From NCBI GenBank assembly GCA_009838845.1, contig VXRD01000010.1, positions 1 through 63,888 on the forward strand: a stretch of 63,888 nucleotides of DNA, written 5' to 3'. The notes under the pieces are model-generated. The model saw nothing but the letters and a program-made list of their open reading frames with translations, had not been told where the DNA came from and made no database searches. Source of the DNA: Gemmatimonadota bacterium. Lineage in GTDB: Bacteria > Latescibacterota > UBA2968. The stretch's first letter is position 1. The number at the start of each line of letters is the position of its first letter. Of the stretch, positions 1,643 to 40,610 are shown in pieces. The translations under genes were made by a program, and so were the position numbers.

Positions 1643-3580
1643 CTAATAACAGCTATAAAGATTTGGATTGTACGCTTTTGTATCCACAGTAAGTCCTGCC
1701 CCCGAAATCTTGCTTTCTGAGATTGTAAGCGGCATGCTGCGAATCATTTCCCACTCCGTGCGCAGATCTTTTAGCCAGGCCGGCAAAGTTCCCAGACGCA
1801 ATTCGAGTTGTGCGTCAAAAAGCGATTCCGGAGCAACCGCCTCACCATTCGATTCCAGAATCTCGAGATCACCTTCATTAAAGGTCGCCGGATTGCCGTG
1901 AAATCCCACAATAATCGGAAACAAAAATTTGAGATATCCCGCCCAAAAATCATAGCGAGTAACATCGCCCCCGTGGTTGTAATTCCAGAACACGAGACGC
2001 CTGAGATGATGCGGTGGAACACCACCACCGCTGCTACCAGACAACCTGCCGTTATTCACACAATCGTACAAATTGGCATAGCTGGGATCCGTCTTATGGA
2101 TATCAAGCGGCTGGTCTGGCGACATATCATAGCGGTAAATCACATTGCCCGTTGAGCTATGGCTCATACCCGTACCATGATGCTGTCCTGGAATCGCACG
2201 GGTGTTTCTCTGAGCATCGATGAGAGGAGCCGTGCTATAAGGAGACTGGCCCGCAATATCTTCTGACAGCCCAAACCATATCCCGTAACTACCTTGACTG
2301 TTAAAAGCAGTATGCCCCTTATTTCCCGCGATTGTAACCTGGTAAACCGATGAGGCAGCACTGACAGTAAAACCAAGTGCGCCATTGACATGCATGAAAG
2401 AGACGCGCCGAACCCAGGAATTGACACACCGATTGAATGAGAGCGGCTTCCAGCCCGCATTGTGGATGAGATTCAGGTGATGGACAAATGACTCAAAAAA
2501 CGAGCCGTGAAAACTGATGTCCTCAACGCCGACTTCTTCGACATGCGGCAAGGACTGCACCCCCCAATTATACGCATGATTGATATGGGTATGCAGGGGT
2601 TCATTGAGACGAATGCGATTGCCTTGAATCTCGGCAATGCTGTGTTCTTCCCGTATATCAAGCCCCACTTCGAAAAGTTCCCGCAAGCCGGACGCTGACG
2701 GAAGAGGTGCAATAAACTCGTTAATTGCTTCTTCCTCCTTAGTATTCACAGAGACCCAAATCCACTGACCGACTGAGAGCCTGGAAGCATTATTCACTGT
2801 AATCCAAAAAGTTTCTCGCTCCGCACTCTCTGTAATACGCGCTAAGGTAGAACGGCTGAAGTTAACAGGCTGGAAATTGAACATACTGGGCACATAACCG
2901 GGTCTATCGGGAAGGGGGACCATGTAATTGACCATTCGGATAATAGTACCATCTGTTCGGCTACCACTACCTCGCAAAACAATATTGCTACTGTGGATAT
3001 AGATAGGCTCGTTGTAGCCTTCGTCATTTTTGTCCGTATCGGTATTGACGAGAAATACACCCGGCGGAAAGAACACAACACCTCTGCCATTTTCTTCTGC
3101 CGCAGCAATAGCTGCCTGGATAGCAGGCTGGTCAGACACATCATCATTGGGAATCGCACCATACGTCGTAACGTCGAATATGGGGTGCGCCACATCGGGC
3201 ACGGGCTTATTAAAATAGTGATATCCCGAATAAGAAAAATCGGGCAAAATGGGTACTGCTCCATTCTCCTTAGCCTTCACAAACTGTTGATAGGCCCTCG
3301 CGTTCCTGAAAAATTCCGCTGGCCTGCCAAAGTCGCTGACAAAGAGCAAAAAATCGCCGAACCCAATCTCGCCATCGCCATTCAGGTCGTATTTTGCATC
3401 GAACCTCTCCTGACCTTCTCGAGTACCAAACGCACTTACAAACAGCAAAAAGTCGGTAAAATCGACCGCACCGCTCTCGTCAAAGTCTGGCGAAGGCGCT
3501 GCAGATACCGGTTGGACCAACAGCGCTATGAATACAATTATAAGCGTTTGTGCTAAACGCACGCGAAGTAGCTTAGCCAT
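1643..3580 (-). CDS. Secreted pectate-lyase-3-fold protein with N-terminal dockerin-like repeats
   Basis: 645 residues. A signal peptide (to about residue 27) precedes two dockerin-like repeats (DFDESGAVDFTDF at about 31-43, DLNGDGEIGFGDF at about 66-78). From about residue 135 there is a pectate_lyase_3-type entry (FDVTTYGAIPNDD followed by AIQAAIAAAEENGRG and FFPPGVFLV), typical of parallel beta-helix polysaccharide lyases and GH28-like proteins. The C-terminal half (GSYGIWFGLSED, QHHGTGMSHSSTGN, LVFWNYNHGG) resembles, from memory, DUF4955 proteins that follow this domain. Likely a periplasmic or secreted carbohydrate-active protein, with substrate and mechanism unknown. It sits between two PL6 genes with a 47-base gap upstream and 12 bases downstream, so the three are probably co-transcribed. 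An AGAAGGAA ribosome site precedes the ATG. Confidence 0.75.
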   Translation of the reverse strand: MAKLLRVRLAQTLIIVFIALLVQPVSAAPSPDFDESGAVDFTDFLLFVSAFGTREGQERFDAKYDLNGDGEIGFGDFLLFVSDFGRPAEFFRNARAYQQFVKAKENGAVPILPDFSYSGYHYFNKPVPDVAHPIFDVTTYGAIPNDDVSDQPAIQAAIAAAEENGRGVVFFPPGVFLVNTDTDKNDEGYNEPIYIHSSNIVLRGSGSRTDGTIIRMVNYMVPLPDRPGYVPSMFNFQPVNFSRSTLARITESAERETFWITVNNASRLSVGQWIWVSVNTKEEEAINEFIAPLPSASGLRELFEVGLDIREEHSIAEIQGNRIRLNEPLHTHINHAYNWGVQSLPHVEEVGVEDISFHGSFFESFVHHLNLIHNAGWKPLSFNRCVNSWVRRVSFMHVNGALGFTVSAASSVYQVTIAGNKGHTAFNSQGSYGIWFGLSEDIAGQSPYSTAPLIDAQRNTRAIPGQHHGTGMSHSSTGNVIYRYDMSPDQPLDIHKTDPSYANLYDCVNNGRLSGSSGGGVPPHHLRRLVFWNYNHGGDVTRYDFWAGYLKFLFPIIVGFHGNPATFNEGDLEILESNGEAVAPESLFDAQLELRLGTLPAWLKDLRTEWEMIRSMPLTISESKISGAGLTVDTKAYNPNLYSCY

Positions 3581-3627: not shown

Positions 3628-5853
3628 TTACTGATAATTATTTTCGTAAGGATTTGCCCCATGGAACGCTCTGTAAAGCGACTGCCAATCCCAACCCGGG
3701 CCCACATCCCTTGTGGTGAGAGGACGATTCAGATTTAACTTATCTCCCAAGTCCCTGAGATCCACGAGCTTGTAAAGAGGATGTCCTTTGTCGATAAGTT
3801 TATCTTTTTGCTTGTGGATAACCCCATAGAGATCAATGGGAAGCATGTCGTAGTTTGGAACGCGAAAGGTCTGAGGTATCTCAATAGGCGTGATGAGTAA
3901 GCCGTTGTGGTCTCGGCTGATGGCCTGTTGAGTGAAGGTGAGCCCACCTAAGTTTTGGGTTATTTGTCTTGAATTTTCTTCGTCGCCGTTGGAGGTATCG
4001 TGTTCATAAATTTCTGTCACGGGACTTGAGATGAGATTGGAGGTAAACGCGTTTTGTTCCCAAACGCTATAGTGAACGAGTGAAAAGGTTTTTGGGGGTT
4101 TGGAGGTGGCAGCTTCGCGATGGAAAAAGAGATTGCCTATGAAGGTATTGTTGATGGGATGTGTGAACCTGAATCTTTCTTCTGGGGACGTGGTGTGGGT
4201 GTACGTACCTTGTTGGACTGCCTGTTGTGCCTCGCTGAGTCGTCGCGCGACAAAGGCTCTTCGAGAATATTTCCCCATAAAGTTTACAAAAGGCACATCG
4301 GCTGGTGCATCAAACGTGTTGTAAGCAACACACCAATCGGTAGTGGCACTGTGCCCGCCCTGTGGACCCGCTGCGCCTTCACCCATTCGAAAGATAGCGA
4401 TGGTGTTTCCATTACCCCCAAGTGTATTTCTTCCGTTGACGCGAAAATAGTTGCCGACTATGATGTGGTTTGTATCCCACCCGATGATGGACATCGCCGC
4501 TCGTTGTAAAAAATAGCTGTGAACAATATAAGCATAGCCTCCCCCTCGCAAACTGAGGTATCTGTTACAGTCTTCCACCGTGTTGTTGAGCCAGAGAAAA
4601 CCGCCCATTTTGCCGACAAAGTGTTCTTCATCGCCTTCGCGATTGCCTGCGATTAGATTCGCATCAAAGATACTCTCAGAATCTCGATTACCAATGCGGC
4701 CAAGTCTCGAAAAGCTATTCTCTATATTTTGAAAAAAGTTGTGATCAACCCGCACGCTGATGGGATTGTCTGTACCTTCCTCAGATTCGTTTCCTCCACC
4801 GACATGGGTGTTATCGAGCAATATATAAGCCCTGTTGATGAAGGCACAATGGTCAATTCGAGTAAACCGGGCTACTTTGTCGTTGGCTCTAAGGGAAGTG
4901 CCGAGGATGCCTGTCCACCTATCTGCCTGGCCGCGGGGGTAAAAAACACACTGTGTGATGCGATTGTGGTCTCCCCTGATAGTAATCGGCTTGGGATACT
5001 GGGTTCTGCCTATTCTGGTATTTGAACTGATATCGCGAAAGATAAACCCATGAAACACATTGTGATCCCCTGAGATATCAAAAACAGTGTTCCCCGTAAT
5101 CGTGACTTCACCGGGATTAATCGCTCGCATTTCAAAGGTGTCGTACCGGCTGACCCCTGTTTTTGAAAATGCAATGCGCCCTAAATCTGTGTAAGTACCA
5201 TCTGAAAAAGCGATGGTGGCAGGACCCGATACATCCTCTATGACGCTGGCGATACCCTCGGTGGTGGGAGAAACCGTAACGGTCTGCTTTTTGTAAATTG
5301 ACACAGTTGTTGAGCCTATTTTATTCCTCGTTTGCGATAGCAAATCTACATGGAGAAGGTAAGTCTCGTTTTGCCACTCTGCAGGTTCGATTTTCAATCG
5401 CACTTTTCCTGTTTTTTCATCAATAGCGAAAGTGGCTGCTTTTTGTTGGTGGTCTTTTTGTGTGGGTTCCAAAACGTAATGGTGAACGGCTGCAAGATTC
5501 CCTTTGAGAAGAATAACGCCAATGGACTCGCCTGTTTTCGCAAGCGTCGAAACCCCAAAGAGCGATTCGCCTTGAAGATCACTGACGGACCCGGTGGTTC
5601 TTTTGCCAAAGCTACTGGCAAAAACCAGAAAATCGTCAAATCCAATCGCACCATCGCCATTCAGATCGTATCTTGCCTCATACATCTTTTGACCTTCCTG
5701 AGACCCAAATGCACCTACAAACAGCAAAAAGTCGGGAAAATCGACCACACCACTCTCATCAAAGTCGGGCGAAGGCACCGCAGACAGCGATTGGATCAAC
5801 AGCGCAATGAGTATAATCGTAAACATTTGTGTTACACGCCTGTGCAATAACAT
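3628..5853 (-). CDS. Secreted PL6-type (chondroitinase B/alginate lyase-like) polysaccharide lyase with dockerin-like repeats
   Basis: 741 residues. Signal peptide at about 1-26, two dockerin-like repeats (DFDESGVVDFPDF, DLNGDGAIGFDDF) at about 30-80, a linker beta-domain at about 95-205, then a parallel beta-helix with GDHNVFHGFIFRD and RGDHNRITQCVF coils. K415 (in VGKMGG) and R436 (in LSLRGG) sit 21 residues apart, matching the catalytic Lys/Arg pair of PL6 enzymes. The reaction is expected to be beta-elimination of uronic-acid polysaccharide; alginate versus glycosaminoglycan cannot be decided here. First gene of the minus-strand lyase operon; AGAAGGAATTT lies just before the ATG. Residues encoded by 5047-5585 are identical at DNA level to the paralogue at 827-1365. 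Confidence 0.85.
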   Translation of the reverse strand: MLLHRRVTQMFTIILIALLIQSLSAVPSPDFDESGVVDFPDFLLFVGAFGSQEGQKMYEARYDLNGDGAIGFDDFLVFASSFGKRTTGSVSDLQGESLFGVSTLAKTGESIGVILLKGNLAAVHHYVLEPTQKDHQQKAATFAIDEKTGKVRLKIEPAEWQNETYLLHVDLLSQTRNKIGSTTVSIYKKQTVTVSPTTEGIASVIEDVSGPATIAFSDGTYTDLGRIAFSKTGVSRYDTFEMRAINPGEVTITGNTVFDISGDHNVFHGFIFRDISSNTRIGRTQYPKPITIRGDHNRITQCVFYPRGQADRWTGILGTSLRANDKVARFTRIDHCAFINRAYILLDNTHVGGGNESEEGTDNPISVRVDHNFFQNIENSFSRLGRIGNRDSESIFDANLIAGNREGDEEHFVGKMGGFLWLNNTVEDCNRYLSLRGGGYAYIVHSYFLQRAAMSIIGWDTNHIIVGNYFRVNGRNTLGGNGNTIAIFRMGEGAAGPQGGHSATTDWCVAYNTFDAPADVPFVNFMGKYSRRAFVARRLSEAQQAVQQGTYTHTTSPEERFRFTHPINNTFIGNLFFHREAATSKPPKTFSLVHYSVWEQNAFTSNLISSPVTEIYEHDTSNGDEENSRQITQNLGGLTFTQQAISRDHNGLLITPIEIPQTFRVPNYDMLPIDLYGVIHKQKDKLIDKGHPLYKLVDLRDLGDKLNLNRPLTTRDVGPGWDWQSLYRAFHGANPYENNYQ
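5047..5585. repeat. Second copy of the 539-bp identical tract
   Basis: Partner of 827-1365, in the same orientation, 4220 bp away. Direct repeats of this length are also a potential site for recombination that would delete the intervening lyase gene. Confidence 0.9.
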
Positions 5854-6269: not shown

Positions 6270-6298
6270 GGTCACTACAATTTGTAGTGACCTTTTTT
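6270..6298 (+). terminator. Rho-independent terminator, probably bidirectional
   Basis: GGTCACTAC (6270-6278), loop AATTT and GTAGTGACC (6284-6292) make a perfect 9-bp stem followed by six T. An A-rich stretch precedes the stem, so it could also end minus-strand transcripts reading from 6353. It lies between the convergent genes 5973-6221 and 6353-7177. Confidence 0.9.
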
Positions 6299-6352: not shown

Positions 6353-7177
6353 TTAAGCATTCAAGGCCTTAACAGAAGCATGGTTCTTTCTTGCCGCGCG
6401 GTACGTTGGGAACACCTGCGGATAACGTTCGCCGGAAGCCGTCTGGTAGGCATCTGCGTGAATGAAGGCAATGCTGAAGGCGCGACGGGGCCGATTCGTG
6501 GTATTCACAAGAGAAGAATGCAGCAGTTTGGTTTTGAAGAGAATGACTTCGCCTTTGTCCATTTCCATGTAAGCCCGTTTTTCTTCCGGGGCATACTTTT
6601 GAATGTCATCTTCTCGATCGACCGTATGAATGGGACATTCCTTGTGTGAATAAGGAATCACGGTCAGGCAGCCGTTTTCCCGTGTCTGTGGATCGAGGGC
6701 GGTATAGATCGTGATTTCTTCGGGAATACTCAGGTTCCAACTGCGCCCGTCCTGATGCCAGACAAGGGGCACGCCGCCTTCGGCTGGTTTGTTAAAAAAC
6801 ATGGACCTGAACACGCCGACTTTCTCGCCTATCTTTTTTCGCGTGATATGCCTGAAAAGTGGATGCTGGATGTATTTCAGAAACAAAGGGTCCATCTCCA
6901 GTTCCTGAATCTTCCGATACTTCAGGGAACTGCCCTTGTGCCTGGCAGTAAAACCGTTCATCTCCTCTGCCTTTGAGGCCGAAGGGCAAAGCTGCATGCG
7001 CATCCCCTCGTAGCGAATTTTGCCCAGCATGATCTCATCGATGCGGTCGCAAAGTCGGTCTATTTCTCCTTCTGGTAATATCATACCCAGCCGAACATAA
7101 CCAATCGCTTCCAGTTCCTGCCATTCGGCTGTGGTCAGTTCAGGGTTCTGTCTGAGGTTTGTACCGTTCATTGCCAT
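6353..7177 (-). CDS. PhyH-family Fe(II)/2-oxoglutarate dioxygenase
   Basis: 274 residues from the ATG at 7177, which has GAGAGG 9 bases upstream; a longer frame would start at 7222 but overlaps the preceding gene. The iron-binding triad is visible as H141-x-D143 (VWHQDG) and distal H220 (KLLHSSL), with R231 as the likely 2-oxoglutarate anchor. The family hydroxylates or otherwise oxidises small organic acids, fatty acyl-CoAs, ectoine or secondary metabolites; the substrate here is unknown. Last gene of the minus-strand catabolic run, directly after a class-III aminotransferase. Confidence 0.85.
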   Translation of the reverse strand: MAMNGTNLRQNPELTTAEWQELEAIGYVRLGMILPEGEIDRLCDRIDEIMLGKIRYEGMRMQLCPSASKAEEMNGFTARHKGSSLKYRKIQELEMDPLFLKYIQHPLFRHITRKKIGEKVGVFRSMFFNKPAEGGVPLVWHQDGRSWNLSIPEEITIYTALDPQTRENGCLTVIPYSHKECPIHTVDREDDIQKYAPEEKRAYMEMDKGEVILFKTKLLHSSLVNTTNRPRRAFSIAFIHADAYQTASGERYPQVFPTYRAARKNHASVKALNA

Positions 7178-7196
7178 TGGGATATCCTCTCTATGC

Positions 7197-8519
7197 CTAT
7201 GAAGCAACCTCATCAAGGGCATTTCCGATAGCTAAAATCAAACCATCGATGTGCTCGTGCTGCGTCGGAAGACTAATCGCACACATAGTCAGTCCCTGCC
7301 CGCAGAAATAGCCCTGATTGAGCAGAGACAGAAAAACGGCGTGTGCCATTGCCTTATCCGACCGGGTTTGATCGCGATAATCGCGCAACCGGTCAATGCC
7401 AAAATGGATACCGAACACCGACCCCGTCACAACAACCTGCGCCATAACACTCCGTTCGGCAAACAAATCTTCCAGACCGGTCTTCAACCGATTCCCCAGA
7501 CGATTCAGATGCGCGTAAGCCTCGTCAGTCATAGATTCGAGCGTAGCGATCCCCGCAGCCATCGCCACGGCGTGACTGCTGTGGGTACCACTCTGAAAAA
7601 CAGATGAAGACCCACTGGAATTATCCACCAGATCCATAATATCTGATCGCCCGCCAAAAGCCCCAACGGGAAACCCGCCGCCGATCATCTTGCCAAAACA
7701 CGTCAAATCGGGCCTGACCCCCACATGACTCTGCAAGCCACCCTTCGCCTGACGAAAACCGACAATCTCATCGAGAATCAGCAAAATGCCGAGTTCCTCG
7801 GTAATCGCGCGCACCCGCTGGATAAAATCGTGCCGGATCGGGATAATACCCGCCTTTGGATCGAGAATCACACACGCCAATTCGTCGCGGTGGCGCGACA
7901 AAAGCCGCTCGACACTCTCCTCATCGTTATAGGGTAAAACAATCACATCCTCAAGCGCGTGCGACGCCATACCCCCCGCGCTGGGAACGGCATTGGGCGC
8001 AGAGGCTTCACCCGCGGATTCCAGGGGCGGAGCAGTGCTGATCTCCACAGCATCGTGACTCCCGTGGTAACCGCCCTCAAACTTCGCGATCTTTGGCCTA
8101 CCGCTGAAACACCTCGCCAGCCGGACAGCGTGCAATGTGGCTTCGGTCCCGGAACTGACAAACCGGATGCGATCAATCGAAGATATGCGCTCGCACATCA
8201 TCCGCGCCAACCGGGTCTCGACACCCGTTGCAGCGCCAAGCGCGATACCATCGACCAACTGTCTCTCCACCGCTTCTATAATCGCAGGATGGTTATGCCC
8301 CAGAACCTGCGCGGTATGGTGATTCGAGAAATCGACATAGGACCTGCCGTCAACATCTTCGAGCACACATCCCTTTCCCCGCCGCAACGCGATCGGATAC
8401 GGCGCAAAAAAATAGGCGCCCTTGGCGGCGCCGGCATTCACCGATCGACCATCCTCAAACATCTGACGGGACATCGGCGTCAATTCGCGGTATCTAACTT
8501 CAATAGTCTCTCGTGACAT
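7197..8519 (-). CDS. Class-III PLP-dependent aminotransferase, glutamate-1-semialdehyde aminomutase-like
   Basis: 440 residues. The PLP lysine is K277 in CFGKMIGGG and the cofactor aspartate D250 lies in ILDEIVGFR; SSGTEATLHAVRLAR (about 122-136) is the phosphate-binding region, YHGSHD the substrate loop. The overall layout resembles HemL, but the context is catabolic rather than tetrapyrrole synthesis, so I read it as an aminotransferase or aminomutase acting on a small amino-acid-like product. GGAG lies about 10 bases upstream of the ATG. It is 13 bases from the amidohydrolase upstream and 19 bases from the PhyH gene downstream. Confidence 0.85.
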   Translation of the reverse strand: MSRETIEVRYRELTPMSRQMFEDGRSVNAGAAKGAYFFAPYPIALRRGKGCVLEDVDGRSYVDFSNHHTAQVLGHNHPAIIEAVERQLVDGIALGAATGVETRLARMMCERISSIDRIRFVSSGTEATLHAVRLARCFSGRPKIAKFEGGYHGSHDAVEISTAPPLESAGEASAPNAVPSAGGMASHALEDVIVLPYNDEESVERLLSRHRDELACVILDPKAGIIPIRHDFIQRVRAITEELGILLILDEIVGFRQAKGGLQSHVGVRPDLTCFGKMIGGGFPVGAFGGRSDIMDLVDNSSGSSSVFQSGTHSSHAVAMAAGIATLESMTDEAYAHLNRLGNRLKTGLEDLFAERSVMAQVVVTGSVFGIHFGIDRLRDYRDQTRSDKAMAHAVFLSLLNQGYFCGQGLTMCAISLPTQHEHIDGLILAIGNALDEVAS

Positions 8520-8532
8520 AGCACAATCTCCA

Positions 8533-9282
8533 TCACAGTTTCAACAGACGTCTCGCATTTTCTCCAAGCACCAGGCGCTTCTCACAATCGCTGATCCTTG
8601 CGGTAATAATCTTCCCCAGTTGCGTTCGCGGATCCATAAGCGGAACATCCGAACCGAAAAGTACGCGATCGGCACCCGCTTCGGCCACCAGCCTTTCGAT
8701 CACACCAGGCTCGCGGAAAGTGGAACACGTCTCGACATAAACATTCGAAAACCGCTGCGCCGCCCGGATCGCCTGACTTCTGTAAGGCTCGGAATTGCCC
8801 GCATGCGCGATCACAAAATTCGCATTCGGATAGCGCCCGGCAATATCCTCAACATAAACGGGCCAACACGTCTCTTCCCCACCCGTATGCGAAATAATCG
8901 CCAGGCCGCGATCATCCGCGAACTGATAGACCGGATCCCACACCGGATCGTTCAACAGCCAGCGGGAATAGGGCGGGTAGATCTTAATCGCCAAAAATCC
9001 GAGCGCGTCAATCGCCCGTTCCAACTCCGGCACCATAAATTCGGGCATCAGGGGAGAGACATAGGCAAAACCGATAAACCTCTCCGGATAGCGACCCACA
9101 AAAGCCGCAGTCTGATCATTGCCCGTTGCGCCATCTGGATGAAAGATATTGAACATACAACAGCGATCAATGCCCACGGCATCCATCGCGTGGAGAATCT
9201 CATCGGCATCATCGCCCATCTCAAAAATATCCCATCGGCCGACGTGCCCGTGAAAATCGATAACTTCCCAACCGTCAATCAT
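8533..9282 (-). CDS. Amidohydrolase-family (PF04909-type) metal-dependent hydrolase or decarboxylase
   Basis: 249 residues from the ATG at 9282 (MIDGWEV), which follows a GGAG site and overlaps the stop of the preceding gene by 8 bases; the longer frame from 9309 would overlap by 35. Metal ligands are intact: H11-x-H13 in DFHGHVG, a His in IISHTGG, a His in VIAHAGNS and the Asp in LFGSDVP. This family includes ACMSD-like decarboxylases and lactonases. Its partner at 9275-10021 is a degenerate homologue, suggesting that the two work as a pair. Confidence 0.85.
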   Translation of the reverse strand: MIDGWEVIDFHGHVGRWDIFEMGDDADEILHAMDAVGIDRCCMFNIFHPDGATGNDQTAAFVGRYPERFIGFAYVSPLMPEFMVPELERAIDALGFLAIKIYPPYSRWLLNDPVWDPVYQFADDRGLAIISHTGGEETCWPVYVEDIAGRYPNANFVIAHAGNSEPYRSQAIRAAQRFSNVYVETCSTFREPGVIERLVAEAGADRVLFGSDVPLMDPRTQLGKIITARISDCEKRLVLGENARRLLKL

Positions 9283-10021
9283 AGAGAACCCGCTCCAGAT
9301 TCGCCGCACAAATCAACCTGAGATCATCATTCGATATCTCCAGATGATGGAGCGCGAACAGCATCGGACCCATCGCATACCGCGGGAAAAACGACCCGTA
9401 CATCAGGCGACTCGCACCAAACTCCCGAACGAGCTTCTCAATCCCGCAGATATTCTCATAACGGCTGAGTTCGAGAAACGCATTGGGCAACACCCGCATC
9501 ATCGGACGGATCATCATCGAATGCGTATAATGCGCGCCGACCAACACAACAGTCAGATCCGGATACCCACCCAGCGTATCGACAATCTCAGCCAGCGGCG
9601 TATCCGCCAGCGAGACCCAGAGGGGAATACCCTCAGCACTCAGCCATGTGAGCAAATCACCATAGAGCCACGAAACAAATGGCAGCCTGCATTCCTCGGT
9701 ATTGTGCAGTCGAACGCTCGAAACGACACCGTCCCGGTGGAAATCGCACAACTGCCCCAGCGAACCGGAATCGCACCCGGCGACGAACTGGGGAACCAGC
9801 GCGTCATTTTGCCCCGTCAACCCTGCGAGCGAATCATTCCCCTGCATCGGACTAATCCATTCGCCTTGAACGGAATAGACAAGCGCGCGATCAACCCCGT
9901 GGCGTCCCATCTCCTCGAGCAACTGACCGGGCGAATCGACTGGAGACCGCCGGTCGTGGCGATTGCCAATCCCGACATTGGCATCAAATACGGGAACGCG
10001 AGATCTGAAAGACAAAGACAT
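9275..10021 (-). CDS. Amidohydrolase-like protein lacking the metal ligands (probable pseudoenzyme)
   Basis: 248 residues with the TIM-barrel framework of PF04909 (start VFDANVGIGN, middle VVLVGAHYTHS, end RLMYGSFFP). Compared with its neighbour the N-terminal HxH is replaced by A-N, the middle His by Ser (WVSLADT) and the late Asp by Phe (YGSFFP). The frame is clean and the 8-base overlap with the intact paralogue argues for co-translation and a real product. A structural or regulatory partner of the 8533-9282 enzyme is the simplest reading; a different chemistry is possible. Confidence 0.75.
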   Translation of the reverse strand: MSLSFRSRVPVFDANVGIGNRHDRRSPVDSPGQLLEEMGRHGVDRALVYSVQGEWISPMQGNDSLAGLTGQNDALVPQFVAGCDSGSLGQLCDFHRDGVVSSVRLHNTEECRLPFVSWLYGDLLTWLSAEGIPLWVSLADTPLAEIVDTLGGYPDLTVVLVGAHYTHSMMIRPMMRVLPNAFLELSRYENICGIEKLVREFGASRLMYGSFFPRYAMGPMLFALHHLEISNDDLRLICAANLERVLYD

Positions 10022-10048
10022 TGTTTATAATCCAACTCGGATATGGAA

Positions 10049-11545
10049 TCACCCATCGCCCCGCGCAACGACCTCCGACCAGGGAACGCCATGATGGATG
10101 TCCTGGTGCGCCTGAGACCAGGTCTCCGTATCATAACCCGGAACATCTGCCGGATTCAACCCCTCTATGAGCGGACCGTGCATAAGCGGCGGACAGGAAC
10201 GAAAACGCAGCAAATCGATCAGCAACTTCCCCCGGACCTCGCGATAATCCGGATCATCCCACCGGTTGACGAGTTCCCCCGGATCAATGCGATGGTCGTA
10301 GAGTTCGCTCTCATCTCCCGTAATATCCAGCGTAATCCGAAATTCTTCCGTACGCATCGACATATGGTGATACGCCTTGACGTGTTCGCACAGCACAGCC
10401 TGCTTATTCCAGGCCTCCCTACCCTGAAGAGTGGGAACCAGACTTCTGCCCTGAACCGTATTGGGCGCATCAACACCCAGAATATCCATCAGCGTGGGAT
10501 AGAGATCCACAGACTCCACAAACCCATCGAAAACCTCCCCCTTCGGCAACGCCGCGGGATAGCGCAGAATAAACGGCACCCGATGGATACACTCGTAAAA
10601 TCCGAGATTTTTCCAGATAAGACCGTGTTCACCGGCAAAATCGCCGTGATCTGCCGAATAAATGACAATAGTCTCCTCCAGAACACCCTGAGATTCCAAC
10701 TCTCCGAGAATGCGCCCGATCTGCTCATCAATCAGAGAGACCAGCCCGTAGTAATGGGCAATGCACTTCTGCAGATGTGCCCTATCTCTGGGCCTGAACG
10801 GATAGGGAAGCTCCCCCCTTTTGGCCTGTTGCTGGCGTTCGGACTTGCCCTCAAACGCGTCCGCTGCATTATCCGGCACCGCGACCTCCTCGGGATCGTA
10901 CATGCGATCAAAGGGCGCGGACACAGTAAGCGGGTCGTGTGGTCTGGAAAAAGAGATACACGCGAAGAACGGTTTGCCCTTATCGCGCTCCCGAAGATAT
11001 TTTACAGACTCATTCCCACACCACACCTCGACCGAGTGTTCCAGTGGCAGCGGCGAAGTCACCGCACATTCGGGGTGCTGTGCCCATTTTCTGGTCAGGT
11101 CAAAATCATCCGCAACCCCCGCTTCGACCAGACTACGGAAATAATCGCAACTCAGCGGGTCGTCGGGCAGGGCGTCGGTCATGTGGTCGAAACGATGATA
11201 ATCGAACTCGCGGCGGGGCCAGTGAACGCCGATATGCCCCTTGCCGATGATAGCTGTTTGATACCCCACCCGCTTCAATGTAGAGGTGATCGGGTTCAGG
11301 TGATCGGGCGGCTCGTCCGTATTATTGTGCCGCCGGTGAAAATGCTCGTACATCCCCGTCATATAGGAAATTCGGGACGGACCACAGTGCGCGCTATTGC
11401 CATACGCCCGCGAAAACCGCACCCCCTCTCGCGCCAGGCGGTCCATATTCGGCGTCCGAAGCAGGGGCTCCCCAGCACAGGACATCGTGCGCGCATTGTG
11501 CTGATCGGTCAAAATCCAGAGAATATTCGGTTGTCCAGATGCCAT
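10049..11545 (-). CDS. Sulfatase (alkaline-phosphatase superfamily), CxPSR type
   Basis: 498 residues. N-terminal metal site ILWILTDQHN, active-site cysteine C54 in HCGPSR (the residue converted to formylglycine) and a second metal site in YSADHGD. No clear signal peptide, so it is probably cytoplasmic, acting on a small sulfate ester (or a phosphonate/phosphate ester, as some relatives do). GTGAGG precedes the ATG. It lies between the amidohydrolase pair and aconitase X in the same minus-strand run, which suggests that desulfation is a step in that pathway. Confidence 0.9.
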   Translation of the reverse strand: MASGQPNILWILTDQHNARTMSCAGEPLLRTPNMDRLAREGVRFSRAYGNSAHCGPSRISYMTGMYEHFHRRHNNTDEPPDHLNPITSTLKRVGYQTAIIGKGHIGVHWPRREFDYHRFDHMTDALPDDPLSCDYFRSLVEAGVADDFDLTRKWAQHPECAVTSPLPLEHSVEVWCGNESVKYLRERDKGKPFFACISFSRPHDPLTVSAPFDRMYDPEEVAVPDNAADAFEGKSERQQQAKRGELPYPFRPRDRAHLQKCIAHYYGLVSLIDEQIGRILGELESQGVLEETIVIYSADHGDFAGEHGLIWKNLGFYECIHRVPFILRYPAALPKGEVFDGFVESVDLYPTLMDILGVDAPNTVQGRSLVPTLQGREAWNKQAVLCEHVKAYHHMSMRTEEFRITLDITGDESELYDHRIDPGELVNRWDDPDYREVRGKLLIDLLRFRSCPPLMHGPLIEGLNPADVPGYDTETWSQAHQDIHHGVPWSEVVARGDG

Positions 11546-11553
11546 TTAACGCC

Positions 11554-11970
11554 TCACTTTCGCGTCACCCGCAGCACGCCCTCATCGGCATCCACCACCA
11601 CATGGTCGCCCGTAGCGATCAGCCCAAAGGGATCTCGTTCCAACTCTGTCATCATCGGAATCTCATTGACAATACATCCGAGTGCAGCCAATCCATCCAC
11701 CTCCACATTGACAAAAGCCGCAGGCGCGTTGCCCTCCAACTGTGCCAGATTTAAAACCATAGGCGTACCCGAAGAACCTTTGGTCGAGCGGATAACCAGC
11801 ACGCGCCCCCCCAGAGAAATCCCCTCCAGAGGATGCCCCACGCCAATCACCTTGCCAGTAACTGCATCCACCTCGCCCCAGAACGACAGGGTCGTATCAG
11901 CCACCAGCGCCTCGCCCTCGGCGTATCCCTTAACCACCCCGTGCCCCCTGATATCAATAGTATTAGCCAT
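11554..11970 (-). CDS. Aconitase X small subunit (DUF126 swivelling domain)
   Basis: 138 residues from the ATG at 11970 (MANTIDIRG), overlapping the stop of the large-subunit gene by 8 bases; the longer frame from 12024 lies inside that gene. It is the swivelling domain of AcnX, with the conserved STKGSSGTPM loop containing the active-site serine and GHPLEG upstream of it. Pairs with 11963-13213 to form a two-subunit dehydratase. Characterised AcnX enzymes are cis-3-hydroxy-L-proline dehydratases (bacteria) and phosphomevalonate dehydratases (archaea). Confidence 0.9.
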   Translation of the reverse strand: MANTIDIRGHGVVKGYAEGEALVADTTLSFWGEVDAVTGKVIGVGHPLEGISLGGRVLVIRSTKGSSGTPMVLNLAQLEGNAPAAFVNVEVDGLAALGCIVNEIPMMTELERDPFGLIATGDHVVVDADEGVLRVTRK

Positions 11971-13213
11971 CTCCGAGCCACCTCCCGGCAACTGCCGCAC
12001 GTATGCAAGCATCCGTCTTGGCAATAATCACTTCCGCCCCCACCATCCCCCGCGCGTAGTGCGCCTGCTTAAAACCGTGGGTCACAATGCGCTTCGCCGG
12101 AATCCGCATATTTGTCGGACAGGTATCGCAAAGAATGCGCCCGCCAGCCGACTCGATAATCTCCGTATAGCCCATCCTATCCGCATTCCCCTTGGTACCA
12201 CGCGCCGTATCGATCCACAGACGCACGCCTTCCGCCACCTTTTTCCCCTTCAAAAGAGCGGCAATTTTCGACAATTCATTAATAGACGCATGTGGGCAGC
12301 CCAGAATTACCGAATCGATTTCATCTCCCGTGCGCACCCGCAAAGACTCATACGTCTCCCTTAACGTCTCTGCATCAAACGTCAAATATTCTTCTGGAAC
12401 ATCCCCCTGAAAAGCCGCATCTATCGTGGGTGCCTCTGGCGTAACACCTGCAATATGGCACATCGTCACCCCGCCCGAAGTCGCCAGAGCCGCACACAGT
12501 TGCTTGGCCTCGTCCTGAGAGGGTCGTCGTATGCCATTGAACACCGGAATACCCAGACCCGCGGCTTTCCCCGCAAAATAGCCCAGCGCGCCCCAATCGG
12601 GCGGATCCTCCAACTCCGCCGTCACCTCTATCCGAAGCGTACCCTTGCGATTCTCATCCAGCAACACGCCAAACTCCGGAACCAGCCCCAGAAGCGAGGC
12701 GGCAATCGCGCTCTCCGTACCGTGTCGCGTAGTCCGCGCGCCCAGAATAGAATTGGCATAAACCACCGCAGACGACTCCGTCCACGCCAGAATCTCGTCC
12801 TTGAGCGGCACATTGCCCACCAGGTACGGAGCACAGGTAAAAGTGGGAATAAATCCCGCATCCGCAGCCAGAACCGCCAGATCCTTCTGCATCTGCACCT
12901 GCTCGGGATCATTCTCGGGCACATCTACTTCGTCCAGAGTCACAAACGCGGCATGCACCGTACAGGTACATCCGGGATGTGTCCCATGAGAACACGCCTC
13001 CACGAGATCGGCCATATATCGGTCCATCGTCTCTTTGGACGCCCCCTGAGCCATCAAATTGGGCACCGGCAGCAAAGCGTGTGTATTATCCACCTTAATC
13101 AGCCGTTTTGCCCCCATTACCTCACCCCAATCAACCAGCCAGCGCATGCACTTAGCCAGATAGTCTCCCCGCGACCCATCCAGAACTGCCTGCTGTTCTC
13201 CTGTCAGTTCCAT
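11963..13213 (-). CDS. Aconitase X large (catalytic) subunit, possible cis-3-hydroxyproline dehydratase
   Basis: 416 residues from the ATG at 13213 (MELTGEQQ), chosen because AAGGAGGG lies 6 bases upstream; the longer frame from 13378 overlaps the upstream PhyH gene. The protein shows the AcnX signature regions GTHPGCTCTVHAAF, NSILGARTTRHGTES and GCPHASINEL, and CDTCPTNM near the end, consistent with cysteine ligands for a metal or Fe-S site. A dehydration of a hydroxylated cyclic amino acid is the best-known reaction. A PhyH-type hydroxylase is encoded 11 bases upstream, which makes a hydroxylase-then-dehydratase sequence plausible but unproven. Confidence 0.88.
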   Translation of the reverse strand: MELTGEQQAVLDGSRGDYLAKCMRWLVDWGEVMGAKRLIKVDNTHALLPVPNLMAQGASKETMDRYMADLVEACSHGTHPGCTCTVHAAFVTLDEVDVPENDPEQVQMQKDLAVLAADAGFIPTFTCAPYLVGNVPLKDEILAWTESSAVVYANSILGARTTRHGTESAIAASLLGLVPEFGVLLDENRKGTLRIEVTAELEDPPDWGALGYFAGKAAGLGIPVFNGIRRPSQDEAKQLCAALATSGGVTMCHIAGVTPEAPTIDAAFQGDVPEEYLTFDAETLRETYESLRVRTGDEIDSVILGCPHASINELSKIAALLKGKKVAEGVRLWIDTARGTKGNADRMGYTEIIESAGGRILCDTCPTNMRIPAKRIVTHGFKQAHYARGMVGAEVIIAKTDACIRAAVAGRWLGDG

Positions 13214-13223
13214 AAAACCCTCC

Positions 13224-14099
13224 TTAATTGCCGAACGGATCGATACCCGCCAACTCGTAATTCCTGATCCAATCGTGATGGGACCTCGCCACGCTCTCCG
13301 GATTAACCCGGCTTCGAGCGATAAAACCCGGCACATCCTCACGACCCGTCGGAAGCCCAATGCGGCTATAGCGAACATCCAGACTCCACCTGACCGAATT
13401 TGTCGTATGCGGGGTTGATCGATGGAGAACGCGCTCCATCGTCATCAATACATCGCCCACATCCACCTCGCAGGTCACGACCTCAGAATCTGGAAGCTCG
13501 CTTTCGAAGACCCCTTTAAAGTGGGGCGTTCGATAATCATGCGGCAAAAGACCGACCCGATGGGAACCGCGAAGCACCTGCAAACACCCATTATCAGCCG
13601 TCGCCTTAACCAGTGGGATCCAAAAATTGACAAAAAGCGTCTCTCCCGCATCCTCCGGTATGAGATACGCCAGATCCTGATGCCACGGCACCACGGTCGC
13701 TTCCAGGTCTGGCAATTTGGCGCGCAGATTGGACTGCGGATGTGCAAAAATTTCAGGACCGATCAGAGATTCAGTCGCATCCAGTATAGCGGGATGCGTC
13801 CTGAGCGCGAACATCCCGGGCGTCTTAAATCTCTTACCCTGAAAATTCTTCCAGATCCGCTCTGGCTCCGAACAGGCATTCGACACCAGAGCCAATCGGG
13901 TCTCAAAAGACGCGTCGGGAAACGTATCCCCCGGATCGAGCAGCCCCTCACCCACCGCCTCGCTCACCACCTCATCAATTTTAGCCACAACTTCATCGAG
14001 AAACGGTTGGTACGCTTCTTTGGGAAGCTGATCGCGGACGATCAAAAAACCATCGTCGTGGAACTGCGCCACCTGTTCCACACTCAGTCCATATTCCAT
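13224..14099 (-). CDS. PhyH-family Fe(II)/2-oxoglutarate dioxygenase next to aconitase X
   Basis: 291 residues. Iron ligands H140-x-D142 (PWHQDL) and H226 (VLHRSTPH), 2-oxoglutarate arginine R237. GGAGGG lies upstream of the ATG. The gene is 11 bases upstream of the aconitase X large subunit and almost certainly shares its mRNA. The arrangement suggests that the dioxygenase makes or removes a hydroxyl group on the AcnX substrate; family members do hydroxylate proline-like and ectoine-like compounds. Confidence 0.86.
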   Translation of the reverse strand: MEYGLSVEQVAQFHDDGFLIVRDQLPKEAYQPFLDEVVAKIDEVVSEAVGEGLLDPGDTFPDASFETRLALVSNACSEPERIWKNFQGKRFKTPGMFALRTHPAILDATESLIGPEIFAHPQSNLRAKLPDLEATVVPWHQDLAYLIPEDAGETLFVNFWIPLVKATADNGCLQVLRGSHRVGLLPHDYRTPHFKGVFESELPDSEVVTCEVDVGDVLMTMERVLHRSTPHTTNSVRWSLDVRYSRIGLPTGREDVPGFIARSRVNPESVARSHHDWIRNYELAGIDPFGN

Positions 14100-14210: not shown

Positions 14211-16700
14211 CTATCCCGGCGTACCTCCGTAATAAAAAACCACCTCTCGCACCCTGACCTCACCGCTGACCAGATCTTCAACGGTAATCTCCAATACATT
14301 CACGCCAGCTTTTGCCTGCCTCAGGTCGAGTTCGACATATTCGTACTCGGACCGCTCCGTCCCTATCTGCTCGTAGGTCACCGACACCTGGGGTTTTCTC
14401 CGCTTGAAGAGCGAACGGAGCCCGGTCGTAATCGCCCCGGCAATTCCCACAGCAGCTTCAGGCGTGAACCGCACCAGGTATTTTACCTTGTAACGGGTCT
14501 GACCGTAGTCATTCCGTTTCAAATTGTAGATCTCGAAATAGGCATAGACCTTCTGCTCCTTCGTATATGTCCTGGAAGGCACCGGAACCACCCAGAGTTC
14601 GCCCTTCCGAAATCGGTTGTTCGTCCCTTCACCGCCAATTGAAGAAGCGAGCTGGATACCGCTGACATGGAGGCCCTCCAATGCATAGTCCGGGACCTCT
14701 ACAGACTGCTTATAGATCCCGATGCGCCCCGAAGCCCTGTCCTTGAGCTGAACCTGTAGCTCGTATTTCCCGGGCGGTACCTGAACCCGAAGCTGGTCGG
14801 GCACAAACACCCCCCTCGCCTGACTGAAACCCTTGCTATTCTGGTAGAAAAACTCATCTGTAGCGCGGTAAATATGGGTGTAATCCTCGTTCATCAGAGC
14901 CATGGAACTCTGCACCCGGATCATGAAGTCCTCGTCTCCCTTGACGATCTCCACCTCTCGGGGGGGAATACCGTAATAGACTTCGAAATTGGTCTGTCCC
15001 TCGGAACCGCGGAAATCGGCCAGATCGTAATAGAAATGCAACGCGGCACCTCGTATGCTCGGACGATAATAATCAGGAGTTTGTGCAATGGTCCTCTGGA
15101 AGACCGTCCCGGGAGCATATTCGAGCATTCGCGCGGCATTTGCAAGCTTATTCTCTCCAGTGGGAATGGGGGGAACCCGAGCAAACTCGTAATCGCCGCT
15201 GCCGAACTCATCGGTAAAAGTAAACTCCACACCCCCCTGGAGCTGGGTGTAGGTCCACGTCTCCCAGGGCACGGTTTCAGCGCTGCGTTCCATCGTCACT
15301 GGAGCGTAGTTTTCGAAGGTGAGGCGGAGATTTGGATTTCCCAACTCATCCAACATGCTCGTGGGATTAAGACCGAGCATATCGGCGTTGGCATCTCCTT
15401 CCGCTTCTGCCGGAGCCGGCCCCACGGTCTCTTCCAACTCCCCGGGCGCGTCGAGGGACCCCGTTTCGATATCGAACTCCATATCGGGACGACGAGGACT
15501 GGATCGGATGGGAAAGACCGGCCCGGTAAAGGTTAAATACGTGGCGGCAGGCCCGTAAAGGTCCACGGCCATCCGGGTGCGCACCGCCTCGACCTCAGGG
15601 CTCACACTCAACTGCCTCTTACTGGAACGGTAGTCTGGCTCTCCGTAGCGAATATAGACCTCTCCCCGCTTGTCCCATGGGAATACCTTTTTGGAAAAAA
15701 AGGTGCGTGCGTACCAGACCCGGCGATAATGTTCAATGATGCGCTCGTTGATCCGCGTCAGGATATCGGAATCTCGCCGCAACCAGAATTTTTCCAGGTA
15801 GTCCAGACGCTCGGTACTGTCAGAGATCGCTTGATAGGCGTGAAATTCCCTCTCAGATGCAACGAGCGAGATGTCGGTATAGTGCTGGCGCTCCTGATCA
15901 TCTACCTTCTGCAGATAGCGCTCGAACTGTTCTAAGGCGGTTTCATAGCGCTCTAAAAAGAAGTAGCCCTGGGCTATTAAGGGGATCAGCCGGGTCTCTC
16001 TGAGATGCGGTTTCAAGTGAGGCGTGAGGTATGTGTTGATCTTGCTGTACTGTTCGCCCTGCACACAGGCGAGTCCGAAGTAGTAAAGCCCATCTACATT
16101 GTCGGGCTCCAGCGCTACGTACTTCTCATAGTAGTGGATGGCTTTCTCGTGGTCCTGCCAAAAGCGCTCGTAGAGTTCGCCCAAAAGCCGGTAGGCCGGG
16201 GCATAAGTAGAATCAATCCTGATCGCCCGCCTCGCCTCGCCTCGAGCACGCCTGGAGTTAAAGAAGGCATTGAGTCCCCTACCGGGGCCCTCCACATAGA
16301 CCAGCCCGAGGCCCACATAAGCATCGGGACGGGTTGCATCCAGCTTTTTGGCCGTCTTGAAGGTCTTTTCGGCTGCCTTGAAGTCCCGATTTTTGAGGTA
16401 CGCATAGCCGAGCCGAGAGTGAAGGGCGGCATCTTCTGGATAAGCCCCAACCAGCCGGGTGAAGGTAACGACCGCATCGCCGGACGCGCCTTTGAGCATC
16501 TGTTGCTCTCCCCGGGCAAGCAGAGTGTCCTTCTCGGCTTTGGAAAGCACCACCTTCTGTTCTGTTTCACCCTCTTCCCGGGCAGAAACAGCAGATACGA
16601 GGATCGGAATCCCTATCCCCACCAAAAGGATCCAATTGCGGGGGAATTTATTCCAGTTTCCCCGGTCTCGTAATCGACACAATCCGGTCAAAGCATTCAT
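14211..16700 (-). CDS. TPR protein with GWxTD-type C-terminal domain
   Basis: 829 residues from the ATG at 16700, which has AGGAGAGGGG upstream; the longer frame from 16751 would overlap the preceding gene. A membrane or signal segment (about 23-38) is followed by TPR repeats (about 50-260, e.g. YLKNRDFKAAEKTFKTAKKL, AIHYYEKYVALEPDNVDGL). The region about 310-370 (FWLRRDSD, RRVWYARTFFS, RGEVYIRYGEPDYR) matches the GWxTD-domain family found in many candidate phyla; function unknown, probably periplasmic or envelope-associated. The C-terminal half is beta-rich. A 39-bp fragment nearly identical to its 3' end lies at 25015-25053. Confidence 0.8.
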   Translation of the reverse strand: MNALTGLCRLRDRGNWNKFPRNWILLVGIGIPILVSAVSAREEGETEQKVVLSKAEKDTLLARGEQQMLKGASGDAVVTFTRLVGAYPEDAALHSRLGYAYLKNRDFKAAEKTFKTAKKLDATRPDAYVGLGLVYVEGPGRGLNAFFNSRRARGEARRAIRIDSTYAPAYRLLGELYERFWQDHEKAIHYYEKYVALEPDNVDGLYYFGLACVQGEQYSKINTYLTPHLKPHLRETRLIPLIAQGYFFLERYETALEQFERYLQKVDDQERQHYTDISLVASEREFHAYQAISDSTERLDYLEKFWLRRDSDILTRINERIIEHYRRVWYARTFFSKKVFPWDKRGEVYIRYGEPDYRSSKRQLSVSPEVEAVRTRMAVDLYGPAATYLTFTGPVFPIRSSPRRPDMEFDIETGSLDAPGELEETVGPAPAEAEGDANADMLGLNPTSMLDELGNPNLRLTFENYAPVTMERSAETVPWETWTYTQLQGGVEFTFTDEFGSGDYEFARVPPIPTGENKLANAARMLEYAPGTVFQRTIAQTPDYYRPSIRGAALHFYYDLADFRGSEGQTNFEVYYGIPPREVEIVKGDEDFMIRVQSSMALMNEDYTHIYRATDEFFYQNSKGFSQARGVFVPDQLRVQVPPGKYELQVQLKDRASGRIGIYKQSVEVPDYALEGLHVSGIQLASSIGGEGTNNRFRKGELWVVPVPSRTYTKEQKVYAYFEIYNLKRNDYGQTRYKVKYLVRFTPEAAVGIAGAITTGLRSLFKRRKPQVSVTYEQIGTERSEYEYVELDLRQAKAGVNVLEITVEDLVSGEVRVREVVFYYGGTPG

Positions 16701-16723
16701 CGCACCCCTCTCCTTACTCCGCT

Positions 16724-17647
16724 CTACTTTGCTTTTGAGGTAAGGCCCCATTCTTTGCGGAGTTTCAAAATGGATTTTCGATCTTCCAGAGGAGCCTTGG
16801 GAATGACGTCGCCCGCGTCCTCTCCCATATGGCGATCGTCAACCGCTTCGGATGCGAGTTGATAACGGGTATCGCTGCTAAAGCGAAAATAATTGGACGT
16901 GTTTTCAAGCGAGGCGTGCATGAAATACATGCCGAAAATGACGACATCGCCCGCGTTAAAAGGAGTAGATGCCCAGCGGACACCCAGAGTTTTCACGACG
17001 TCATCGGGATCGGTGGAAAACGCACCCCCGTCCAGATCTTGATGCGCGTCCATCGCGCCGTAAGTATTTTTGAGCTGCTGGATTTTGTGGGAGCCTAAAC
17101 AGAGGGCAAGCGGGCCCATGTCCAGAGATATATCGCCGAGCGCGGTCCACATCGTATAGAGTTTTTTGGTGCCGGCACCCATATAGACCACATCGTAATG
17201 CGCCCCTGCATTCTGACCTCGGCAGATCACGCGGAGCCATTTGTGGTCAAATGAAAGAACGGGCCCCCCCATGAAGCGTTCGAAGAAGTCCATGGTATTT
17301 TTGCCTTCAACGATTTCGAGAAATCCCGGCCATTGTTTTACAAGTCGATCCGGAAAGCGGGGACGGCGATTTTCGCCAATCACCGCCTTGTCCAGAGGCG
17401 TGTCCGGGGCAAGGAGATTCTGGGCGGCCATGTTTTCCAGAATTTCTCGCCGGGCATTTTGAATTTGCTGCCGCGTATGAAAGTTGCGAATGATGAGATA
17501 GCCGTCTTCTTCGATGCGCTGGTGAAGGGCCTCGGTATCGTCGAGCAGATGGGTGGCTTCTCTGGGGGTGAAAATGGTTTCGCCAAAGACGAGTTCGCGC
17601 CCAGACATCGAAACCCGGGTACCGTCGGGAATGTTAAAAGTGGACAT
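16724..17647 (-). CDS. PhyH-family Fe(II)/2-oxoglutarate dioxygenase
   Basis: 307 residues. Iron ligands H150-x-D152 (AHYDVV) and H244 (FMHASLENT), with R255 as the likely 2-oxoglutarate anchor. It differs clearly from the other three PhyH proteins in the window, with a longer N-terminal region (1-50) and HYD in place of HQD. AGGA lies upstream of the ATG. It is 23 bases upstream of the GWxTD gene, so the two are probably co-transcribed. Substrate unknown. Confidence 0.85.
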   Translation of the reverse strand: MSTFNIPDGTRVSMSGRELVFGETIFTPREATHLLDDTEALHQRIEEDGYLIIRNFHTRQQIQNARREILENMAAQNLLAPDTPLDKAVIGENRRPRFPDRLVKQWPGFLEIVEGKNTMDFFERFMGGPVLSFDHKWLRVICRGQNAGAHYDVVYMGAGTKKLYTMWTALGDISLDMGPLALCLGSHKIQQLKNTYGAMDAHQDLDGGAFSTDPDDVVKTLGVRWASTPFNAGDVVIFGMYFMHASLENTSNYFRFSSDTRYQLASEAVDDRHMGEDAGDVIPKAPLEDRKSILKLRKEWGLTSKAK

Positions 17648-39485: not shown

Positions 39486-40610
39486 TCAAAGCCCCAGATC
39501 TCTCAGATTATAATTTTTCAAAACACTCTCCCGCGTCTCTTCGTTCCACCTATTGATATCCTCCTCCCCAATCAAAGGCTGATAAACATAGCGAAATTCA
39601 TCTGGAAATCGCTGCTGCCGCGCATCGATCCCCAGAGCGATCAAACGAGAACGCTCGTGGATACGCGCCTCGTCGTAAATCACCTCCTCATCCCCACGTC
39701 TCACCCGCGCATTCAGGACAGAAGACCGACGGTGAAAGCCAAAATTAATCGTCATCCGCTTATCCGGCGACGTATTGGCAAAAGAAGCGTGCAGAGCCTG
39801 ACGGTTGGACATAACCACATCGCCGGGCTCACACACCATGGGAACCGCCCCCGGCAAACGGTCAGAACCATCATTATCCGCAATCATCGCTTTAATATCC
39901 AGCTTGCCCCGCTTGTGCGAACCGGGAATCACCCAGACCCCGTTAGCCGCCGTACTCCCGAAAAGCTGAGCCATAAAATTAAACCCATGCGTACCCTCAT
40001 CCCAATCGGGCCTGTCCCACTGCGTGGTACCGTCCTGATGCCAGGCCACCGATGCCCCCAGCCCCGGCTGCTTGACAATAACAGACTCCGTAAACGGCGT
40101 AAAATCCGGCCCATTAATCTGCTCTGCAACAGACAGCAGTTGGGGATGACCATAAAGCCGCAAACAAGAATCCATAATTTGCAGTGGCGCAGCGATATTG
40201 GAAATCACATAAGCCGGCGCATCAGCCGGAGGCTCTGGCTCCGACATCCTGGCCGGATGCCGCCCATTATTGCTCGACGTACCCCCCACGGGATCGCTCA
40301 GCGGTTTGACAAAGCGAAAAGGCTGTCGCGCCAAATCCGCCCCGAGTGCTCTGCGGCCCATTGAATCGACCAGCGCGTCTTTAGTATGCGGTGCCCGCTC
40401 AAACGCATGCGCCAGATCCGCCTGCAAATCTTCGAGTTCCTCAGCGCCCAGCGCACCCTCAAACACATAGAACCCCACGCGCCAATACGCCTCTGCAATA
40501 TCCTCATCCAGCGCACCGTCCGCATTAAACTTGATAGCACCGCGATTCCCAAGCGCAAACGCCATCTCCTCGCCCTCGCGGACATAAGCATCCTCTGATT
40601 TAATTTTCAT
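39486..40610 (-). CDS. PhyH-family Fe(II)/2-oxoglutarate dioxygenase
   Basis: 374 residues, the longest of the four PhyH proteins here. Iron ligands H191-x-D193 (AWHQDG) and H274 (QALHASFANT), 2-oxoglutarate arginine R285. GAGGAGA precedes the ATG. The next gene on the same strand is the ceramidase-like 38030-39478, 7 bases away. Substrate unknown. Confidence 0.86.
   Translation of the reverse strand: MKIKSEDAYVREGEEMAFALGNRGAIKFNADGALDEDIAEAYWRVGFYVFEGALGAEELEDLQADLAHAFERAPHTKDALVDSMGRRALGADLARQPFRFVKPLSDPVGGTSSNNGRHPARMSEPEPPADAPAYVISNIAAPLQIMDSCLRLYGHPQLLSVAEQINGPDFTPFTESVIVKQPGLGASVAWHQDGTTQWDRPDWDEGTHGFNFMAQLFGSTAANGVWVIPGSHKRGKLDIKAMIADNDGSDRLPGAVPMVCEPGDVVMSNRQALHASFANTSPDKRMTINFGFHRRSSVLNARVRRGDEEVIYDEARIHERSRLIALGIDARQQRFPDEFRYVYQPLIGEEDINRWNEETRESVLKNYNLRDLGL

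Follow-up and report, generated by a model that had tools for sequence, protein, structure and literature searches.

A composite Latescibacterota operon with a PhyH-type dioxygenase and a separate branch of heterodimeric aconitase X

Gene content and layout

The stretch of DNA analysed here (63,888 nucleotides, contig VXRD01000010.1 of assembly GCA_009838845.1; "the window") comes from a Latescibacterota genome of 5.75 Mb in 172 contigs, which carries a single copy of aconitase X (AcnX). Eight densely packed genes on its minus strand (6353-14099) encode the large and small subunits of AcnX (AcnXL, AcnXS) together with two PhyH dioxygenases, a sulfatase, two amidohydrolase homologues and a class-III aminotransferase (Table 1). 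Pfam matches and translations agree with the identities and the order that a previous reading of the letters without database searches (the sequence-only reading) had proposed. The eight genes are coding far above chance, since proteins of more than 90% identity recur in congeners.

Table 1 Features of the operon and of its immediate surroundings
Feature	Coordinates	Strand	Evidence
PhyH_A, Fe(II)/2-oxoglutarate dioxygenase	13224..14099	-	PF05721 86 bits; HxD H140/D142, distal His, Arg
AcnXL, AcnX large (catalytic) subunit, 416 aa, ATG 13213	11963..13213	-	PF04412 405 bits
AcnXS, AcnX small (swivel) subunit, 138 aa, ATG 11970	11554..11970	-	PF01989 85 bits; 7CNR_B, 7CNP matches
S1-type sulfatase	10049..11545	-	PF00884 168 bits; CGPSR formylglycine motif (C-x-P-x-R) present
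AMID1, degenerate amidohydrolase homologue	9275..10021	-	no Pfam match; hhalign to AMID2 98.9% probability
AMID2, intact amidohydrolase 2, ATG 9282	8533..9282	-	PF04909 (Amidohydro_2) 129 bits
AT3, class-III aminotransferase, HemL / beta-amino-acid transaminase group	7197..8519	-	PF00202 (Aminotran_3) 188 bits
PhyH_B, second PhyH dioxygenase; ATG 7177 possible start	6353..7222	-	PF05721 105 bits
Palindrome, likely operon terminator	6270..6292	-	10-bp stem, after PhyH_B
TPR/GWxTD-domain protein, upstream of operon	14211..16751	-	TIGR04514 49.6 bits; upstream too in G029, G030, G037
PhyH3, third PhyH dioxygenase, upstream of operon	16724..17647	-	PF05721 55 bits

The packing of an operon, as claimed before, is borne out. 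AcnXL and AcnXS overlap by 8 nt (ATGGCTAA), as do AMID1 and AMID2 (ATGATTGA), a pattern typical of translational coupling, and the remaining intergenic gaps are shorter than 30 nt; an overlap of AT3 with PhyH_B depends on the first ATG of PhyH_B being its start. The start of AcnXL was moved from 13378 to the ATG at 13213, which is preceded by AAGGAGG; those of AcnXS and AMID2 were likewise corrected, to the ATGs at 11970 and 9282. The palindrome behind PhyH_B is the sole one of its kind in the window, with 0 expected by chance, and is likely the terminator of the operon. An identical palindrome is found in the congener G037 (L028 14538-14558) directly after AT3, which is there the final gene of the cluster. 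A promoter scan gave no more sites than were found in shuffled sequences.

Both PhyH proteins of the operon have, as read from their sequences, an HQD motif (at 140 in PhyH_A and at 156 in PhyH_B), the distal His and the 2-oxoglutarate Arg. AMID2 shares the metal-binding His/Asp set (HxH, His, His, Asp) with the Amidohydrolase-2 family (ACMSD, γ-resorcylate decarboxylase, the uncharacterised 3irs); its best match in the PDB gives 52 bits, and there is no close characterised relative. In AMID1, by contrast, HxH is replaced by DxN and the final Asp is lost, and these changes are conserved in a column comparison of 23 rows. The pair of a degenerate and an intact amidohydrolase seen earlier is supported. 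AT3 belongs to the same class as the HemL-like aminotransferases; 6k8h ranks first among its PDB matches (335 bits), followed by GSAM and β-phenylalanine aminotransferases, but the protein stays under the NCBIfam cut-offs for GSAM (362 vs 398 bits).

Clade and active site of AcnX

To our knowledge, only two activities of AcnX are known, the dehydration of cis-3-hydroxyproline (C3LHyp) and of mevalonate 5-phosphate. PF04412 and PF01989 on adjacent genes mark the enzyme from the window as a heterodimeric type II AcnX, and the type-II cysteines are likewise present. In pairwise comparison AcnXL is closer to the AcnX of T. kodakarensis (200 bits) than to the C3LHyp dehydratase of A. tumefaciens (154 bits). 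The window protein was aligned (MAFFT) with 23 close relatives and a further 25 AcnX rows, with residue numbers of T. kodakarensis or A. tumefaciens (At) and residue roles as given in PMC8184944. All 24 clade rows retain C110/C283/C342, E129, S130, S131, K361 and Y365, and the Ser base of the small subunit (Ser62) is retained in every one of them (T. kodakarensis numbering). In the tree the clade is supported with 100/100 and lies outside of both the group of C3LHyp dehydratases (100/100) and that of the archaeal enzymes (99/93); the branching order among the AcnX subgroups is uncertain because of the long branches between them. The residue pattern agrees with the tree in separating the clade from both known groups. 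Judged by these two lines, AcnX belongs to a well-supported separate, uncharacterised type-II branch. A single-sequence AlphaFold model of AcnXL reached a pLDDT of 39 and was not used.

The sequence-only reading had favoured a hydroxyproline-like specificity, that is, catabolism of a cyclic amino acid with AcnX as C3LHyp dehydratase and PhyH as proline or pipecolate hydroxylase. The enzyme does belong to the same family as the A. tumefaciens dehydratase (PDB 7CNP), shares with it the catalytic Ser/Glu/Lys/Tyr, retains Trp35 of the pyrrolidine pocket and scores 246 bits with the NCBIfam C3LHyp model; this is far under the 700-bit cut-off, which was set for the fused protein. However, At-Asp203 is replaced by Leu or Ile (Leu in the window) and At-Thr72 by Gly or Ala in every clade row, and the contacts to the nitrogen of C3LHyp are gone. 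Positions 43-60 of the AcnXL from the window are free of acidic residues, and therefore gap placement cannot restore At-Asp203. In addition, AcnX is encoded by two genes instead of one fused gene, lacks Cys510 and has its third Cys at the type-II place, and it does not group with the hydroxyproline dehydratases in the tree. The surroundings point in the same direction: proline racemase (PF05544) was found neither in the genome nor in the neighbourhoods read, and the cluster is devoid of hydroxyproline neighbours and, in contrast to the plasmid C3LHyp loci, of an Ldh-type reductase. Residues, tree and genome content led us to reject this specificity, and the corresponding pathway is very improbable. 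Nothing tested indicates the sulfated or N-acyl cyclic amino acid that had been suggested as substrate.

A phosphomevalonate dehydratase of the archaeal kind was rejected on the same three grounds, and its probability is negligible. With the Type-IIb enzyme of T. kodakarensis (PDB 7CNR/7CNS) AcnX has in common the two separate subunits, the three Fe-S cysteines, the catalytic Glu, Ser, Lys and Tyr and the Ser base, but the phosphate loop (Gly48-Val49-Ser50/Asn53; GVS..N) is absent from the clade. The position of Asn233/Asn79 is occupied by His according to MAFFT and by Asp according to the pairwise alignment, by Asn in neither, and the two enzymes fall into different clades. HMG-CoA reductase (PF00368), the marker of the mevalonate pathway, is missing from the genome, whereas it was found in 5 control genomes. 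Since pocket residues disagree and both proline racemase and HMG-CoA reductase are lacking, neither of the two known substrates fits, and both are disfavoured. On the enzyme itself, the sequence-only reading was right in placing a PhyH hydroxylase next to an AcnX whose specificity is unassigned. This AcnX resembles Type-IIc to IIf, which are likewise bacterial heterodimers devoid of the landmark residues of both known activities; these subclasses are uncharacterised (Watanabe et al. 2021), and bacterial type-II enzymes of that kind were named an open matter (PMC8184944).

Two other kinds of AcnX were seen. A lone, long-branched AcnX from another family of the same class (L100 / G057:C102) is unlike every other group of the tree. 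A different subfamily from Latescibacterota (L094, L095, L097-L099) and alphaproteobacterial plasmids (L176, L199) has Asp-Thr-Gly in place of Glu-Ser-Ser and Gly in place of the Ser base and lacks Cys283 and the catalytic Tyr; judged from these residues, it possibly catalyses another chemistry altogether.

Neighbourhoods in related genomes

When 84,980 species genomes were scanned with exact peptide patterns of the AcnX from the window, 21 AcnX loci at 70-99% identity were retrieved, after which identity falls to 36%; such patterns may have missed intermediates. The hosts are Latescibacterota and Acidobacteriota, some of them labelled Gemmatimonadota. In the Acidobacterial class of G067, 8 of 250 genomes have an AcnX above the cut-off, distributed over three subgroups of the tree.

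Ten genomes of the genus carry AcnX, the window included. PhyH_A, AcnXL and AcnXS are contiguous in all ten, and this is the sole constant unit in the genus. The sulfatase is found inside the operon in two (the window and G035), and so is PhyH_B; in G029, G030 and G037 an orthologue of the sulfatase is located about 8 kb upstream. The amidohydrolases are present in seven (AMID1 is missing from G031, G032 and G036) and AT3 in eight (missing from G031 and G032). The operon is built as a mosaic at the level of the genus, in which most genes other than PhyH_A and AcnX are loosely attached passengers. One conserved pathway of eight genes, as first envisaged, is ruled out by gain and loss across congeners and class, and the claim that the genes are kept together in relatives holds for PhyH_A-AcnXL-AcnXS within the genus, but neither for the other genes nor outside of it. 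A trace of such a loss is seen in G036, where a remnant of AMID2 lies between AcnXS and AT3 (L024 5084-5383) and AMID1 is gone, which speaks for a recent deletion inside the cluster. The eleventh congener, G038, has no AcnX, no AMID1 and no close PhyH_A, only a PhyH paralogue of 46% identity; an empty-site comparison revealed no synteny around the two copies of the flanking sigma-factor gene.

The amidohydrolases have a history of their own. In almost all of the neighbourhoods read, AMID2 comes after AMID1; at a few loci automatic gene picking failed to show AMID1. The pair is found class-wide, also in genomes that have no AcnX (AMID1 orthologues L122-L138), and G026-G028 have AT3 behind the pair, with these genes located on other contigs than AcnX. 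Its conservation and its altered metal site suggest that AMID1 behaves as a retained inactive partner rather than a decaying gene. A conserved active/inactive amidohydrolase pair across the whole class is a separate small question.

In two related genera (G027, G028) a member of the AcnX clade stands amid 3-4 PhyH genes and a zinc alcohol dehydrogenase. The sister clade of AcnX adjoins FAD_oxidored and MFS genes, once Iso_dh and once IlvD, which points, if only weakly, to organic hydroxy acids. Reading the substrate from the Acidobacterial AcnX neighbours was given up, as no conserved partner is present.

Beyond the terminator palindrome, on the same strand, follow a chondroitinase-B-like protein (PL6/chondroitinase-B-like, 3628-5853) and a DUF4955/pectate-lyase-like β-helix protein (1643-3580). 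Their N-terminal parts have in common a stretch with two DxDxxG-type repeats (FDESG... / YDLNGDGEIG...), noted by eye, which looks like a dockerin-like, calcium-binding pair. Near the cluster in congeners are genes for DUF6785/6784 membrane proteins, sulfatases, a ceramidase-like protein and, judged by eye, an oxidoreductase of the Gfo/Idh type; the cluster lies in a catabolic region of variable content. A literature search for Latescibacterota together with sulfatase and PhyH found nothing. These surroundings would allow AcnX to be seen as a sugar-acid dehydratase that forms a 2-keto-3-deoxy acid and serves, with the sulfatases and β-helix proteins, in the breakdown of a sulfated uronate-containing glycan. 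The chondroitinase-B-like gene, the DUF4955 gene or both lie beside the cluster in 8 of the 10 congeners, sulfatases are nearby, and the chemistry would parallel the dehydration of C3LHyp with an α-hydroxyl replacing the α-nitrogen. We consider this unlikely, since a strong terminator separates the β-helix genes from the operon, the Acidobacterial members of the clade have no such neighbours and an aldolase or kinase for such a path was not seen in the cluster.

The PhyH link and a possible function

The explanation we put forward, with a probability of roughly 0.45, is a genus-level catabolic operon of Latescibacterota that consists of three separable units: PhyH_A with the heterodimeric AcnX, an older AMID1-AMID2(-AT3) cassette, and the sulfatase with PhyH_B as late additions. 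PhyH_A would install a β-hydroxyl on an organic acid, and AcnX would then dehydrate the product. For this, the three type-II cysteines are assumed to carry a [4Fe-4S] cluster that acts as Lewis acid, the Ser of the small subunit would take the α proton and water would leave the β-hydroxycarboxylate. The substrate is expected to have neither the α-ammonium of C3LHyp nor the phosphate of mevalonate 5-phosphate. Jointly, hydroxylase and dehydratase would desaturate the organic acid, or oxidise it if an α-hydroxyl is present. Any role of AMID2 and AT3 is putative.

How much the proximity of PhyH and AcnX means depends on the genome, which contains at least 154 PhyH genes in 5.75 Mb, a very large expansion of Fe/2-oxoglutarate dioxygenases. 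The window alone has four (6353-7222, 13224-14099, 16724-17647, 39753-40481). Calculated from 150 listed PhyH positions, the chance that a random point in the genome has at least three PhyH genes in 6.5 kb is 0.5% (P 0.005), a figure to be set against the 3-4 PhyH genes around AcnX in G027 and G028. Because the chance tests are post hoc, the association is only suggestive. Several observations weigh against a functional link. A PhyH lies within 1 kb of about 5% of random points, and at least two lie in 11.5 kb around a similar fraction (~5%). Outside the genus the PhyHs adjoining AcnX (G027, G028) are not orthologous to PhyH_A; in G028 they are 32-34% identical to it, and a homologue of 55% identity is encoded away from AcnX. 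The ten congeners are a single lineage and not ten independent observations. In Acidobacteria the AcnX of the clade is a bare two-gene unit with no conserved neighbour and no PhyH next to it, and we know of no assay of any member of the clade.

An alternative is that AcnX is self-sufficient and unrelated to its neighbours, the operon having come together by accident in a genome with many PhyH and sulfatase genes. The Acidobacterial bicistrons and the frequency of PhyH genes would be explained in this way, as would the gain and loss of the sulfatase, the amidohydrolases, the aminotransferase and PhyH_B among relatives. Yet PhyH_A is located directly upstream of AcnXL in every one of the ten congeners, and several PhyHs adjoin AcnX in two further genera, which makes an accidental union rather unlikely in our view.

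As a pathway, the composite operon was for the most part put together locally. The AcnX clade, on the other hand, is sharply bounded, its pocket pattern is defined and a candidate for the preceding enzyme is at hand, which makes finding the substrate practical. It is tempting to speculate that the clade represents a third substrate class of AcnX, although we regard this as possible but doubtful: a heterodimeric [4Fe-4S] enzyme acting on a non-amino, non-phosphorylated β-hydroxy acid supplied by a dedicated PhyH, which together would constitute a two-enzyme, oxygen-dependent desaturation module.

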